From a virus, in IMG/VR virus record IMGVR_UViG_3300025083_000115, positions 1 through 34,685 of that record: DNA of 34,685 bases; one strand, written 5' to 3'. The number at the start of each line of letters is the position of its first letter. Position 1 is the stretch's first letter. Below the pieces are notes generated by a model, which ran no database searches, was not told the DNA's origin, and saw only the letters and a program-made list of their open reading frames with translations. This document shows, in pieces, positions 14,855-31,274 of the stretch. The translations under genes were made by a program, and so were the position numbers.

Positions 14855-15085
14855 ATGATAACATACGACAAAGTAAAAATACATTCAGTAAGAACTGATG
14901 ATACTTACTATGATAGCAAAAAGAAAAAGCATATCAAATATGCTAAACCAAAAGTAACAAAGAAACTTTTATTTGAAGATAATTGTTATGATCTTGGAGA
15001 ACTGTATATGCAGATTAAAAACTGTCATGAGAGAGATCCATATCATAAGATAGAAGTAACTTTTAATTCTAGTTTAGAATACTAA
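14855..15085 (+). CDS. Small basic early protein, last of the early array
   Basis: 76 residues, Lys- and Tyr-rich (DDTYYDSKKKKHIKYAKPK). No recognised family. A junction-type AGAAAGGAAAACAA precedes the ATG. Its end overlaps the oppositely directed small-terminase-like gene by 4 bases, so the two operons converge here with no spacer. Confidence 0.55.
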   Translation: MITYDKVKIHSVRTDDTYYDSKKKKHIKYAKPKVTKKLLFEDNCYDLGELYMQIKNCHERDPYHKIEVTFNSSLEY

Positions 15086-15555
15086 TCTTTATTATCAGAG
15101 GGTATATCAGTTATATCCTCTGATACATCAATCATATCATCTTGATTGTCTTCCCAGCTAATAGTCATTTCAGTTTTTTGATCTACCTTTTGAACCTTAT
15201 TATCAGAATATAAATCAGTAATCTTTCCTGCAACCCATTGAATGAACCGAGTTTTTTCCCTCACCCAAAGCACCTCGTTGGGTGATTCTATTTCTTGATA
15301 AGAAAATACTTGCATTAATTTATCAATTAAAGTTTGGATACCTAGCTTTCTAGCTTCAGTAATCTTAGCTTCTAACTCTGGATTTTTTCTCAAGTAAGCG
15401 TAGAACTTCATCAAGCTGAACGGATACTGTTTGTTTTGAAGTATCTCGGTAAGCGTATTTCCGTCTACCAATTTTTCTTGTATGGTAAATAGATCTTTCT
15501 CTGTTATCAATTCTTGGTTTGGTTTTGGTGTAATAGTATTCTTTGATTTGCTCAT
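15082..15555 (-). CDS. Terminase small subunit-like protein
   Basis: 157 residues. TIQEKLVDGNTLTEILQNK (about 24-42), then FYAYLRKNPELEAKITEARK, then RFIQWVAGKITDLY fit the Sf6/P22-like small terminase layout: helix-turn-helix DNA-binding start, YxxAR segment, RxxWxxxK helix and an acidic tail (DNQDDMIDVSEDITDI). It would recognise the packaging site. It is about 3.5 kb from terL and on a different operon. The first 191 bases overlap the upstream gene in another frame; the next in-frame ATG would cut into the domain, so I keep 15555. Confidence 0.65.
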   Translation of the reverse strand: MSKSKNTITPKPNQELITEKDLFTIQEKLVDGNTLTEILQNKQYPFSLMKFYAYLRKNPELEAKITEARKLGIQTLIDKLMQVFSYQEIESPNEVLWVREKTRFIQWVAGKITDLYSDNKVQKVDQKTEMTISWEDNQDDMIDVSEDITDIPSDNKD

Positions 15556-15787: not shown

Positions 15788-16485
15788 TATTTATTTTCCC
15801 ATGGTTTAATCCCATTGCGTTTATTGTATTCAACTTTCTCTCTGTATCTTGGGTTAGCTTGTTTCTTTATTCTGGACAATGCCGATAGAATTTTATCCCC
15901 ACTAACATAAGTTGCTTTACTCTCTCTCTCATTATCTTCCTTTCTTTGAATGGCTAACTTACAGAGATAGACATTAGTTTTATCTTCTTTTAATTCGTTG
16001 ATAGGGAGCTTAGATAATTCATCTAATATCTTCTCCCTATCCCCTGCAAAACTCTTAACTATTTTACCTATGTTATAATGTATATTGTCTTCTACTAATG
16101 TAGCTAATGTTTGGCTATCTGACGCTAAATGTTTAGCTATCTTAGGGGTTGAGATAGCTAATGTTTGGCTATCATAAGTCTTCTCAGCTTTCAAAAATGT
16201 ATCATTAACAATATAAGTTTTACCAGATCGACCTCTAATATCTGATATGATATTTAATTTAACTAACTTAGATATTGCAGTTTTAATTGTGGCTCTACAT
16301 AAACCAGTATCTTTAGCAATAGTTTCGTGTCTCAACTGTGCCTTGTATCCATTTTTCTTCCAAGCATATTTCATTATAGATAAGAATACATTTAAGCAGG
16401 TAGATTTTTCTTCCCCATTTAAAATATTTAAGTGATGATACAGCTTATAAGTTACATGGAGAAAACCCCTAGTTGTTACGTTCAT
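15787..16485 (-). CDS. Winged-helix replication initiator, lambda O-like
   Basis: 232 residues. LRHETIAKDTGLCRATIKTA then ISKLVKLNIISDIRGRSGKT (about 52-92) is a clear helix-turn-helix with a wing, as in phage replication initiators. A linker (about 100-135) contains DSQTLA twice and is coded by three palindromic iterons (16101-16173). The C-terminal half is charged and ends in a basic KRNGIKPWENK. This is the arrangement of lambda O: N-terminal DNA binding, origin within the gene's own middle, C-terminal helicase-recruiting part. Coupled by TAATG to both neighbours. No helicase or helicase loader is visible, so host DnaB would have to be recruited. Confidence 0.7.
   Translation of the reverse strand: MNVTTRGFLHVTYKLYHHLNILNGEEKSTCLNVFLSIMKYAWKKNGYKAQLRHETIAKDTGLCRATIKTAISKLVKLNIISDIRGRSGKTYIVNDTFLKAEKTYDSQTLAISTPKIAKHLASDSQTLATLVEDNIHYNIGKIVKSFAGDREKILDELSKLPINELKEDKTNVYLCKLAIQRKEDNERESKATYVSGDKILSALSRIKKQANPRYREKVEYNKRNGIKPWENK
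16101..16173. repeat. Three palindromic iterons inside the initiator gene (probable origin)
   Basis: TAGCTAATGTTTGGCTATC occurs exactly at 16101-16119 and 16155-16173; a variant, GCTAAATGTTTAGCTATC, lies between at 16124-16141. Each is itself an inverted repeat (TAGCTAA/TTGGCTA with one mismatch; GCTAAA/TTTAGC perfect). The junction of copies 2 and 3 also forms a 9-bp inverted repeat TTAGCTATC/GATAGCTAA. An A+T-rich stretch flanks them (about 16055-16092). Iterons that are dyads inside an initiator gene next to A+T-rich DNA are the layout of the lambda origin. Confidence 0.7.
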
Positions 16486-16874
16486 TATTTATCCTTTCGT
16501 TTGGTTGATTTACATTTTAATTTGTGGTGGTCATGCAAGGATCTCAATATTATAACCCATTGATCCTCACTCATTAGTCTAAACTCTGTCTTAGAGCTAC
16601 GTATACGCTTGATCCTAAAGGTTAGGCTACTCGGTGTCAGTTCCTTATAGAATACTAAAAAGCAGGGTATATTTAGGCGTTCAGCGATGATCTTTGAGAG
16701 GGTTGTAGACTTAAATTGTTGACCTTTATCATAACAAGTCTCGATGATAGCTAAAGGCTCATAACAATACTGACAACACTCAACACTATCAATATCTATA
16801 TAAGCAATTTTATCATATTTCCTATGAAAATCTGAATATAAACCATTACTGAAAGCATACACATCTCTAGCCAT
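16485..16874 (-). CDS. Possible nuclease-like phage protein
   Basis: 129 residues. AYIDIDSVECCQYCYEPLAI (24-43) then IE (44-45), followed by a helix and IPCFLVFYK (69-77), recalls a phage family with a (D/E)-rich restriction-endonuclease-like core (DxDxxE...PxALIE...K...PxxVVxY). CCQYC gives a Cys cluster. The usual E-x-K ending is not obvious (here IETC), so activity is uncertain. It lies between the initiator and the Mom-like gene and overlaps the latter by 8 bases. Basic C-terminus (HKLKCKSTKRKDK). Confidence 0.45.
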   Translation of the reverse strand: MARDVYAFSNGLYSDFHRKYDKIAYIDIDSVECCQYCYEPLAIIETCYDKGQQFKSTTLSKIIAERLNIPCFLVFYKELTPSSLTFRIKRIRSSKTEFRLMSEDQWVIILRSLHDHHKLKCKSTKRKDK

Positions 16875-17448
16875 TTATAACCTCATTTTTTTTAGGGTAA
16901 TTTAATAAAGGATATTTTAAATTATTTAAAAAATATTTTTTATCTTTTTTATTACCAACTAAATAAACATATCTATGCTTAGAACTTCTAAAAATTCTTT
17001 TTGTTTTATCTCCTAAATGGTGTCTTGGATGTTTACCATTTTTACTTGCCATATCTGTTCTAGGTTTACTCGTTCCTGTAAAGTAAAAGTTAGTTGCTTG
17101 ATATATAAAACCTACATGATTTTGATTTGTATCAGCATAAGAAACAACTATCTTTGGTTTAGGTAAAAGTTGTAAAGATTTTCCAACTAACATTGATGCT
17201 TCATTTTTTTTATTATATTTTAAAACTAATCTATTCAATTCAATTACAAAAGATTTATTTTCTAATCCAGCAATCCCCTTGCATAAACTGGGAGAAGCAG
17301 GAGAACCATAACTAACTATACCAACTAATTCATTATTTAAAAATAAACCATAAGCATAAGATATACTAGGCATACGCTTGGCATAATGTATATTTAAAAT
17401 AAAAGGTTTAGTATCATTATAATTAATTTTTTTTACTTCATATACCAT
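16867..17448 (-). CDS. Mom-like DNA adenine modification protein (GNAT fold)
   Basis: 193 residues. Diagnostic segments in order: HYAKRMPSISYAYGLF (21-36), ELVGIVSYGSPASPSLCKGI (40-59), ELNRLVL (70-76), ASMLVGKSL (84-92), IVVSYADTNQNHVGFIYQAT (100-119), TGTSKPRTDM (124-133) and SSKHRYVYLVG. These match the phage Mu Mom family, GNAT-related enzymes that convert adenines in DNA to N6-carbamoylmethyl-type adenine and so block restriction. In phage this protects progeny DNA. It is embedded in the replication operon, overlapping a 52-residue coiled-coil gene upstream by 11 bases and the next gene by 8. No companion gene like Mu Com is recognised. Confidence 0.8.
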   Translation of the reverse strand: MVYEVKKINYNDTKPFILNIHYAKRMPSISYAYGLFLNNELVGIVSYGSPASPSLCKGIAGLENKSFVIELNRLVLKYNKKNEASMLVGKSLQLLPKPKIVVSYADTNQNHVGFIYQATNFYFTGTSKPRTDMASKNGKHPRHHLGDKTKRIFRSSKHRYVYLVGNKKDKKYFLNNLKYPLLNYPKKNEVING

Positions 17449-20519: not shown

Positions 20520-20552
20520 TTGAAAAAAAAGAAAGGAAACTGTAGGGGATCT

Positions 20553-21080
20553 ATGACCATAAATGTAAGTCAACACTATAATAAACACATCAATAAACTA
20601 AATCAAAACAACTTTATCTACAAAGTTAAGAAAGCATTTTACCTTTTAACAAACCAAGAAGAAAGATTATATGAGGTAGGGTTTTCAGAAGGATTTTTGT
20701 ACGCAGCAGAACTAATGCAAAGACAACCAATAATGGATAGCAATAACAAAACTAAAGTTGCTACTACATTTAAAACAAAGAACGCAAACTTGGAAGTCGT
20801 ATCTAAACTTGTAGATAAAGTGTGTGAGAAATATACTGTTAGCAAACATGACATCTTTAGTAAAGGTAGAACAAGGGATGTAGTTCGAGCAAGAAGTATA
20901 ATATATAATCTATTGTATGAAGGTTACAATGTTAGCCTATCTTCTATGGCTAGAGTATTTAATCAAGATCATACTACAATCATTCACTCTATAAGAAACA
21001 AACAAGATAAGAAAAATTATTGGGGTGCAGAAAATTCTATATGGCAAGAGTTCGAAGAACTAAAACAAATTAATATTTAA
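20553..21080 (+). CDS. DnaA domain IV-like DNA-binding protein
   Basis: 175 residues from ATG 20553, preferred to an upstream TTG (20520) because AGGGGA lies 5 bases before it. The C-terminal part, YTVSKHDIFSKGRTRDVVRA (104-123), RSIIYNLLYEGYNVSLSSMA, then FNQDHTTIIHSIRNK, matches DnaA domain IV, whose DHTTV-type motif contacts the DnaA box. There is no AAA+ domain. It may bind host or phage DnaA boxes to recruit or block host initiation, or act as a regulator. It ends the rightward operon and overlaps the opposing gene end by 4 bases. Confidence 0.75.
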   Translation: MTINVSQHYNKHINKLNQNNFIYKVKKAFYLLTNQEERLYEVGFSEGFLYAAELMQRQPIMDSNNKTKVATTFKTKNANLEVVSKLVDKVCEKYTVSKHDIFSKGRTRDVVRARSIIYNLLYEGYNVSLSSMARVFNQDHTTIIHSIRNKQDKKNYWGAENSIWQEFEELKQINI

Positions 21081-29780: not shown

Positions 29781-31274
29781 CTATAAAGCGATTGCCATTG
29801 CAATGCTAAATCCATTAGTTGCAAAATTACTTGTGTCTGTTGCTTCTACATTATTCCATGCAGAACCATCCCAATATTTAAGTACGTTACCAGTTGTATT
29901 GAAATATAATGCACCATCAATTAATGCGTCTCCATCATTATCTGTTGCAGGGTCGCTAGATTTTGGACCAAGATAACGATCATCAAAATTGTCGTATGCT
30001 AATTCTGCAGCAGTTTGAGCTGTTTGAGCTGCCGTAGCCGAAGTCGCAGCATTGGTAGCTTGAGTGGTTGCCGTAGTAGCCGAAGTTCCAGCATTGGTTT
30101 CAGAAGTCGATGCGTTTGACGCAGACGTTGAAGCAGCACTAGCACTTGATGAAGCATTACTTGCACTCGTTGAAGCATTTGATTCAGAAGTCGAAGCAGC
30201 AGAAGCCGATGAAGCAGATGCTGTAGCAGAGTTTGCAGAGTTAGTAGCTGAAGTTGCAGATGCCGTAGCAGAAGTTGCAGAATTAGTTGCACTAGTTGCA
30301 GCTTGTGTAGTGGGAGCATCCCAAGATGAACCATTGTAAAATCTAATATCGTTGTCTGTTGAATTGTAGTACATTGCACCTTCAACAAGAGCATCTCCAT
30401 CATTGTCTAAAGTTGGATCGCTTGATTTAGTTCCTAAGAATCTGTCATCAAAACTATCAAAACTGTTAGCAGCATTAGTTGCCGAAGTAGATGCTTCACT
30501 TGCTTTTGTAGTTGCAGTTGTTGCACTTGTTGCTGCATTGGTTTCACTTGTAGCAGCAGCAGTAGCACTAGCAGCAGCATTAGTAGCACTTGTTGTAGCA
30601 CTAGCTGCATCTACCAAAAGATCCCATTTAGCACTATCTGTATTTGTAGTTAAAGGTTCTACACCAGAAGATGTATGACCTGTGTTACATAAAAATATAT
30701 TATTTGTTGATGTATCTTTTACAATATCTCTAGCATTGTAAGTAGTTGATGCAGACCAATCACCTTGAAAAGTTCCTAGTTCTTGTGATACAACAAGTTC
30801 ACCATTATCATCAAAACCAAAAATCTTTCCTGCTCTTTCAGTTGCACCAACAGCAAATTCTGTAGATGTCATTGTGTTTGTTCTTGATAATTTAATTGAT
30901 CTATCTATTTCTTCTTGCAACTGTTGAATTGCCATCATAGATCTATCTAATCCTTCTTCATGACTTTCTGCAGGGAATGGATCATTAGCAATATAATCGA
31001 TTGCTTGTGTTTGTGGTGATGCTCTTCTTATAACCACAGTTTCTGTTGCAGTTGGAATGTTACCAGATGTAAATACAATAGTTCCACCAGAAGCAGAACC
31101 TGCACCTGTTACCGTATAATGTGTAGTTAAAGTCTTAACTGTTTCAGTAGCTGAAGCATCCCTAATAATAACTTGAAGATCAGCATCTGCGAATACTTTA
31201 AATGTATAGTTGAAGGTATCTAAAGTACCATTTCCAGAGTAGGAGTTTTTTACTGTAGTAGATGATATTGTCAT
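29781..31274 (-). CDS. Tail fibre, T7 gp17-like N-terminus
   Basis: 497 residues (T7 gp17 has 553). Residues 1-135 (NGTLDTFNYTFKVFADADLQ... QTQAIDYIANDPFPAESHEE) are the T7-type fibre attachment domain. Residues 171-215 (GDWSASTTYNARDIVKDTST) look like a small carbohydrate-binding-like module. Two long Ala/Ser/Thr stretches (about 223-270 and 321-425) form repeat stalks. Two copies of a module, DDRxLGxKSSDPxxDNDGDA with YYN/YFN and a Trp-Asp/Asn end, lie at about 275-320 and 428-478. It ends in NGFSIAMAIAL. It would bind the host surface at the tail. Confidence 0.85.
   Translation of the reverse strand: MTISSTTVKNSYSGNGTLDTFNYTFKVFADADLQVIIRDASATETVKTLTTHYTVTGAGSASGGTIVFTSGNIPTATETVVIRRASPQTQAIDYIANDPFPAESHEEGLDRSMMAIQQLQEEIDRSIKLSRTNTMTSTEFAVGATERAGKIFGFDDNGELVVSQELGTFQGDWSASTTYNARDIVKDTSTNNIFLCNTGHTSSGVEPLTTNTDSAKWDLLVDAASATTSATNAAASATAAATSETNAATSATTATTKASEASTSATNAANSFDSFDDRFLGTKSSDPTLDNDGDALVEGAMYYNSTDNDIRFYNGSSWDAPTTQAATSATNSATSATASATSATNSANSATASASSASAASTSESNASTSASNASSSASAASTSASNASTSETNAGTSATTATTQATNAATSATAAQTAQTAAELAYDNFDDRYLGPKSSDPATDNDGDALIDGALYFNTTGNVLKYWDGSAWNNVEATDTSNFATNGFSIAMAIAL

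Follow-up and report, generated by a model that had tools for sequence, protein, structure and literature searches.

A virus of SAR11, the most abundant bacteria in the ocean, very probably carries the start of its DNA copying inside the gene of the protein that recognises that start, as phage lambda does. The window (the whole stretch of 34,685 nucleotides that was analysed) contains repeated sites that lie inside an initiator gene and are constrained as DNA, and a conserved A+T-rich segment is located directly beside these iterons, as in a lambda-type embedded origin. We consider it highly likely that these elements form the origin at which an HTVC010P-type pelagiphage starts replication, placed within the gene of its own initiator. 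A lambda-like origin within the initiator gene had been proposed in an earlier note on this DNA and is supported here by conservation at the DNA level among relatives, the evidence coming from sequences only.

Table 1. Positions of the candidate origin elements, the initiator gene and its domains in the window
Feature	Position	Strand	Description
O-like replication initiator gene, 232 aa	15787..16485	-	PHROG initiation/O-like families; Pfam HTH_36
Winged-helix DNA-binding domain, residues ~5-100	16186..16473	-	AlphaFold2 pLDDT mostly 80-93; HTH_36
Iteron 1	16153..16173	-	GATAGCCAAACATTAGCTATC, 21-bp imperfect palindrome
Iteron 2	~16124..16142	-	AGATAGCTAAACATTTAGC, shifted frame; 32 nt from iteron 1
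Iteron 3	16101..16119	-	GATAGCCAAACATTAGCTA; 22 nt from iteron 2; almost no synonymous change among relatives
Conserved A+T-rich segment, candidate unwinding element	16060..16100	-	TTAGTAGAAGACAATATACATTATAACATAGG...; synonymous constraint; A+T 0.80
C-terminal helical domain, candidate contact to host helicase/loader	15790..16071	-	alignment; AlphaFold2 pLDDT 86.7; putative function

The window was assigned to the HTVC010P-type pelagiphages on the basis of tblastn matches to isolates and the common gene order. It represents a podovirus genome, complete or nearly so, with 126 bases repeated at both ends, and its virion genes, previously described as T7-like, are T7-like podovirus genes by annotation. 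The initiator gene matched 19 phage records with 46-72% identity (tblastn), all 19 being Pelagibacter phages, and had relatives in at least 80 IMG/VR contigs. Its flanks in the window encode an unknown 129-aa protein, Mom, a 140-aa ORF and the terminase small subunit. The isolates share the order of nuclease and ssDNA-annealing genes, small ORFs, initiator, 140-aa ORF and terminase small subunit gene, and this order was the same even where the relatives' initiator was only ~25-30% identical. HTVC024P, HTVC100P, HTVC010P, Greip, Lederberg and Skadi ('Ubiqueviridae') have the same gene in the same position and gene order, most of them with such embedded iterons. The Mom-like DNA modification protein (16867-17448, minus strand; Pfam Mom, E=1e-33) is encoded upstream of the initiator gene, where several relatives have other small ORFs. 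No prophage relatives were detected in a scan of bacterial genomes, the single match being a phage contig in an archaeal MAG. Positions 1-9722 of L342, filed as 'Candidatus Woesearchaeota archaeon' RS366 (PBPJ01000001.1), come from an HTVC010P-type phage and show the shared gene order; the contig is a mis-binned MAG sequence.

The two exact 19-base copies and the variant reported earlier were recovered on the minus strand, the exact copies at 16101-16119 and 16155-16173 and the variant between them. Read along the gene's strand, the three 19-base copies are GATAGCCAAACATTAGCTA, AGATAGCTAAACATTTAGC and GATAGCCAAACATTAGCTA. The word GATAGCYAAACAT occurs exactly three times in the window (minus-strand starts at 16173, 16141 and 16119, at distances of 32 and then 22 nt). 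When up to three mismatches were allowed, the 19-mer was present at the two exact sites only, with 0.03 expected by chance. The iterons code for the linker, and both exact copies are translated as DSQTLA on the gene's strand, as had been stated. The variant copy is read in a different frame and yields KIAKHLA, though its DNA is nearly identical to that of the exact copies. Because the spacings of 32 and 22 nt are not multiples of three and the middle copy lies in another frame, the repetition belongs, on this evidence, to the DNA and not to the protein. Of 1000 synonymous-codon shuffles of the gene, 7 equalled its best repeat in the linker. The claim that each copy is an inverted repeat held only in part: the symmetry was good in iteron 1, where 8 of 9 arm pairs matched (P=0.007), moderate in iteron 2, with 6-bp arms (P=0.07), and weak in iteron 3 (P=0.19); the commonest iteron type among relatives gave P=0.016. 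The iteron word was confined to the initiator gene in the window and in nine of the ten other complete genomes examined, the tenth, HTVC203P, being without a clear iteron to search for.

A total of 172 unique full genes were collected from six viral-contig scans and the isolates. The best linker repeat had a lag of 22 nt in 66 of 70 window-clade, 26 of 33 HTVC010P-clade and 16 of 26 Skadi-clade genes, and a lag of 21 nt in all ten HTVC034P-clade genes examined. Among 62 representatives, 50 had a lag of 21 or 22 nt and 39 had repeats that exceeded those of synonymous shuffles (P<=0.02). No significant direct repeat was seen in the linker of the ten HTVC203P-clade genes or of a few others. A GATAG pair exactly 22 nt apart was present in 102 genes, with the copies always in different frames, one being read ATA GC. 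(Ile-Ala/Asp) and the other GAT AG. (Asp-Ser/Arg). The bases after GATAG co-varied between the copies (CCGT/CCGT, CTAA/CCAA, CCAC/CCAC, ACGT/ACGT and CTCA/CTCA). In 40 representatives, the copies agreed at 150 of 160 positions within the four bases after GATAG, versus 115 with shuffled pairings, and none of 20000 shuffles reached the observed value, a statistic that ignores phylogeny. The shuffle comparisons ignore shared ancestry in general; the evidence from frame shifts and spacing is less dependent on it. Two iterons were universal in the window's superclade, and the third, 32 nt upstream, was optional. Distant clades had unrelated iterons at this place in the linker, 21-22 nt apart, namely GGGTATTAAAGAACAC in HTVC034P, GTATAWAAAAGATCA in Skadi and GATATTAAAACTGTTAAGG in L236, the last with ~30% protein identity. 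The suggested check for iterons kept at the DNA level in relatives was run and gave a strongly positive outcome, seen in the 22-nt spacing, shifted frames, concerted change, synonymous collapse and clade-specific iterons. The recognition-helix region also differed between iteron classes: window-type iterons (CYAAAC after GATAG) were paired with R[AS]T[IV]KTA, the CCGT type with RTTIK[SEDN]C, the CTCA type with SRATVKRC, the HTVC034P type with SRSTVRRC and the Skadi type with SRITVRR. This pattern, which follows the tree, is no more than suggestive of the recognition helix and iteron class changing together.

The A+T-rich stretch noticed beside the iterons was confirmed, with 80% A+T in the 40 bases from 16060, and it lies on their C-terminal side. 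The ratio of observed to expected synonymous change was 0.02-0.1 at codons 126-132 and low to codon 138 in 103 superclade genes, with values of 0.02-0.35 at codons 129-138 for the window's superclade; the low-synonymous codons 126-138 span iteron 3 and the A+T-rich segment. A comparison of the window's superclade with the Skadi/HTVC034P/HTVC203P superclade, which has different iterons, gave ratios of 0.11-0.20 and, over codons 128-136, of 0.11-0.28. The core of the A+T segment right after the iterons, AATATACATTA, occurs in frame 0, 1 or 2 among relatives via small indels. An overlapping gene as the cause of the synonymous dip and a repeat at the protein level only were both rejected, since the A+T element shifts frame and no other frame is open across relatives. 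In the neighbouring genes, no synonymous dip below 0.3 was observed except in the 140-aa ORF, over its overlap with the terminase small subunit gene. This overlap of ~190 nt (15365-15555, minus strand) involves different frames; relatives show little synonymous change there, which indicates that the dual coding is conserved.

The assignment of the gene to the winged-helix proteins was borne out by a Pfam HTH_36 match at residues 32-80 (E=6e-7) and by the AlphaFold2 model, in which the disordered linker (residues 101-138) had pLDDT values below 50 at 101-120 and 129-136. PHROG searches with the window protein returned phrog_270 (replication initiation, 3e-7) and the O-like phrog_678 (1e-6, no curated cut-off), and O-like matches were obtained for 41 of 63 aligned relatives (best 7e-10). 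The lambda O family scores were not reached, neither for Pfam Phage_rep_O (15.8 bits versus a cut-off of 28.7) nor for NCBIfam TIGR01610 (18.1 versus 45.5). The term lambda-O-like, as used in the earlier note, holds for the layout of the origin but not for the curated family cut-offs. The window protein probably works like O, but with scores under the cut-offs of both lambda O models it is formally not a lambda O family member. What the most distant relatives retain is its C-terminal domain, with Lys208 and Tyr214 invariant, and a fold search of the predicted domain found no PDB relative. The full model likewise had no informative relative in the PDB. Among the low-TM winged-helix matches in BFVD, all weak, were a GpO N-terminal protein as well as replication initiators and replisome organizers. 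The winged helix is a generic fold, and transcription regulators were weakly matched too.

Relatives of the initiator gene are annotated in GenBank as 'putative transcriptional regulator', and the published annotation of the HTVC010P-type isolates differs in this respect from the initiator reading given here. If the protein were a regulator as annotated, the repeats would be an intragenic operator controlling its own or downstream (terminase) genes, and both the generic winged helix, whose PDB neighbours include CodY and ArsR, and the position of the gene ahead of the terminase small subunit gene would be compatible with this. We regard such an operator as improbable, for the sites lie ~310 nt inside the gene and none were found at promoters or elsewhere in the genomes examined. 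Promoter-like matches in the window were at chance level and none overlapped the iterons, the PHROG matches are to replication initiators, and the strict constraint on the adjoining A+T segment, common to clades with different iterons, would be left unexplained.

An origin embedded in the initiator gene must also be weighed against a replication start elsewhere, driven by a phage DnaA domain IV protein or by host DnaA, with the iterons acting as a control site only. The window does encode a DnaA domain IV (box-binding) protein without an AAA+ domain (20520-21080, plus strand; Pfam, E=4e-16), and the gene is annotated in most HTVC010P-type isolate genomes. However, DnaA boxes in the window were neither exact nor clustered, with scattered one-mismatch matches in an A+T-rich genome, and the protein would presumably be unable to melt DNA or load helicase like DnaA, since only the C-terminal part of DnaA is matched; we rate a DnaA-driven start as very unlikely. 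It is scarcely credible that the terminase small subunit binds the repeats as a packaging (pac/cos-like) site, even though its gene (15082-15555) lies ~500 nt downstream and lambda cosB also uses repeated sites: an origin accounts better for the initiator homology and the A+T segment, and the iteron classes track the winged helix of the containing gene in a comparison confined to that domain. GC skew did not contribute to locating the origin: the turn that the earlier note proposed to look for at about 16.1 kb was absent, and the plain profile follows the coding strand and is uninformative. A third-position skew of +0.05 to the left versus -0.14 to the right, obtained with hand-picked window genes, was rejected as evidence after a comparison of 11 genomes with uniform ORF calling, in which the sign of the strand-corrected skew varied and no peak was seen at the initiator gene.

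Phage lambda served as a positive control, and its gene O was found to contain four iterons in three frames, spaced by 20, 24 and 23 and followed by an A+T tract. As in lambda, the pelagiphage iterons lie in the linker of a winged-helix initiator gene, in different frames and ~20-24 nt apart, with the A+T tract on the C-terminal side, inverted symmetry in some of the iterons and a probable dependence on the host polymerase (PMC7466680). The minimal unwinding unit of lambda consists of two iterons and the A+T tract (PMC7466680), and the elements common to the window's superclade are likewise two iterons and the A+T segment. In contrast to the four lambda iterons, the pelagiphages have two or three, with spacings of 22 and 32; they are lytic podoviruses of SAR11, no P gene adjoins, the C-terminal domain has no recognisable relation, scores stay below the O family cut-offs and iteron classes are very diverse among relatives. 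Iteron number also varies in Shiga toxin-converting phages, which have six instead of four, the extra iterons lengthening the O protein (PMC7466680), a situation resembling the optional first iteron of the pelagiphages. However, those phages are close lambdoid relatives with a P gene, whereas in the pelagiphages the iteron sequences themselves differ between clades.

Scanning of the ORFs with Pfam recognised no polymerase, helicase, primase or lambda P-like gene, so that use of the host replisome is likely. No helicase loader gene P and no P-like family was found adjoining the initiator gene, and a highly diverged loader may be present among the unknown ORFs scanned with Pfam. The Skadi genome is likewise stated to lack polymerase, helicase and primase (PMC10504331). 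The same paper infers use of the host DNA polymerase, an unnamed lambda-like helicase loader and rolling-circle-like replication; it labels the initiator gene as a transcriptional regulator and mentions no origin (PMC10504331). For the origin embedded in the initiator gene, we infer that the iterons are bound, the DNA is melted, the helicase is recruited and the host replisome is used. The 232-aa winged-helix protein would bind, as dimers, the iterons in its own linker DNA, and the resulting complex would bend the DNA and open the adjoining A+T-rich segment. The C-terminal domain would then bring in the SAR11 replicative helicase, directly or via a host loader, the helicase presumably coming from the host because no helicase, loader, primase or polymerase could be recognised in the phage, and the host replisome would copy the phage genome. 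More tentatively, and with the odds somewhat against it, a single small protein might do the work of both lambda O and P, its conserved C-terminal domain loading or capturing the SAR11 helicase (DnaB, perhaps with DciA) with no separate loader and its winged helix reading fast-changing self-coded iterons, possibly helped by the DnaA domain IV protein. If this were true, the iterons and their reader would form a specificity system that diversifies rapidly, in a virus group that is among the commonest in the ocean.

The HTVC010P-type phages are reported to be the second most abundant known pelagiphage group (PMC12753301). In line with the earlier note, which knew of no such description, no pelagiphage replication origin was found in the open-access papers searched. 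The present reading provides a precise, testable origin and initiator for these phages, and a likely function for a gene that is present in many isolates and metagenomic contigs and is currently filed as a transcriptional regulator. It would extend the lambda design to lytic SAR11 podoviruses and supply a naturally varied set of initiators with matching iterons in which the evolution of origin specificity can be studied. Two further observations concern the genomes themselves. One relative, L004 (IMGVR_UViG_3300030202_000274), whose initiator is 91% identical, is 66.6 kb long, ~2x the phage genome, and may be a chimera or a dimer assembly. In the window, repeats of 21 and 42 bp are located at 30030-30600, within an alanine/serine-rich tail-fibre gene (29781-31274).
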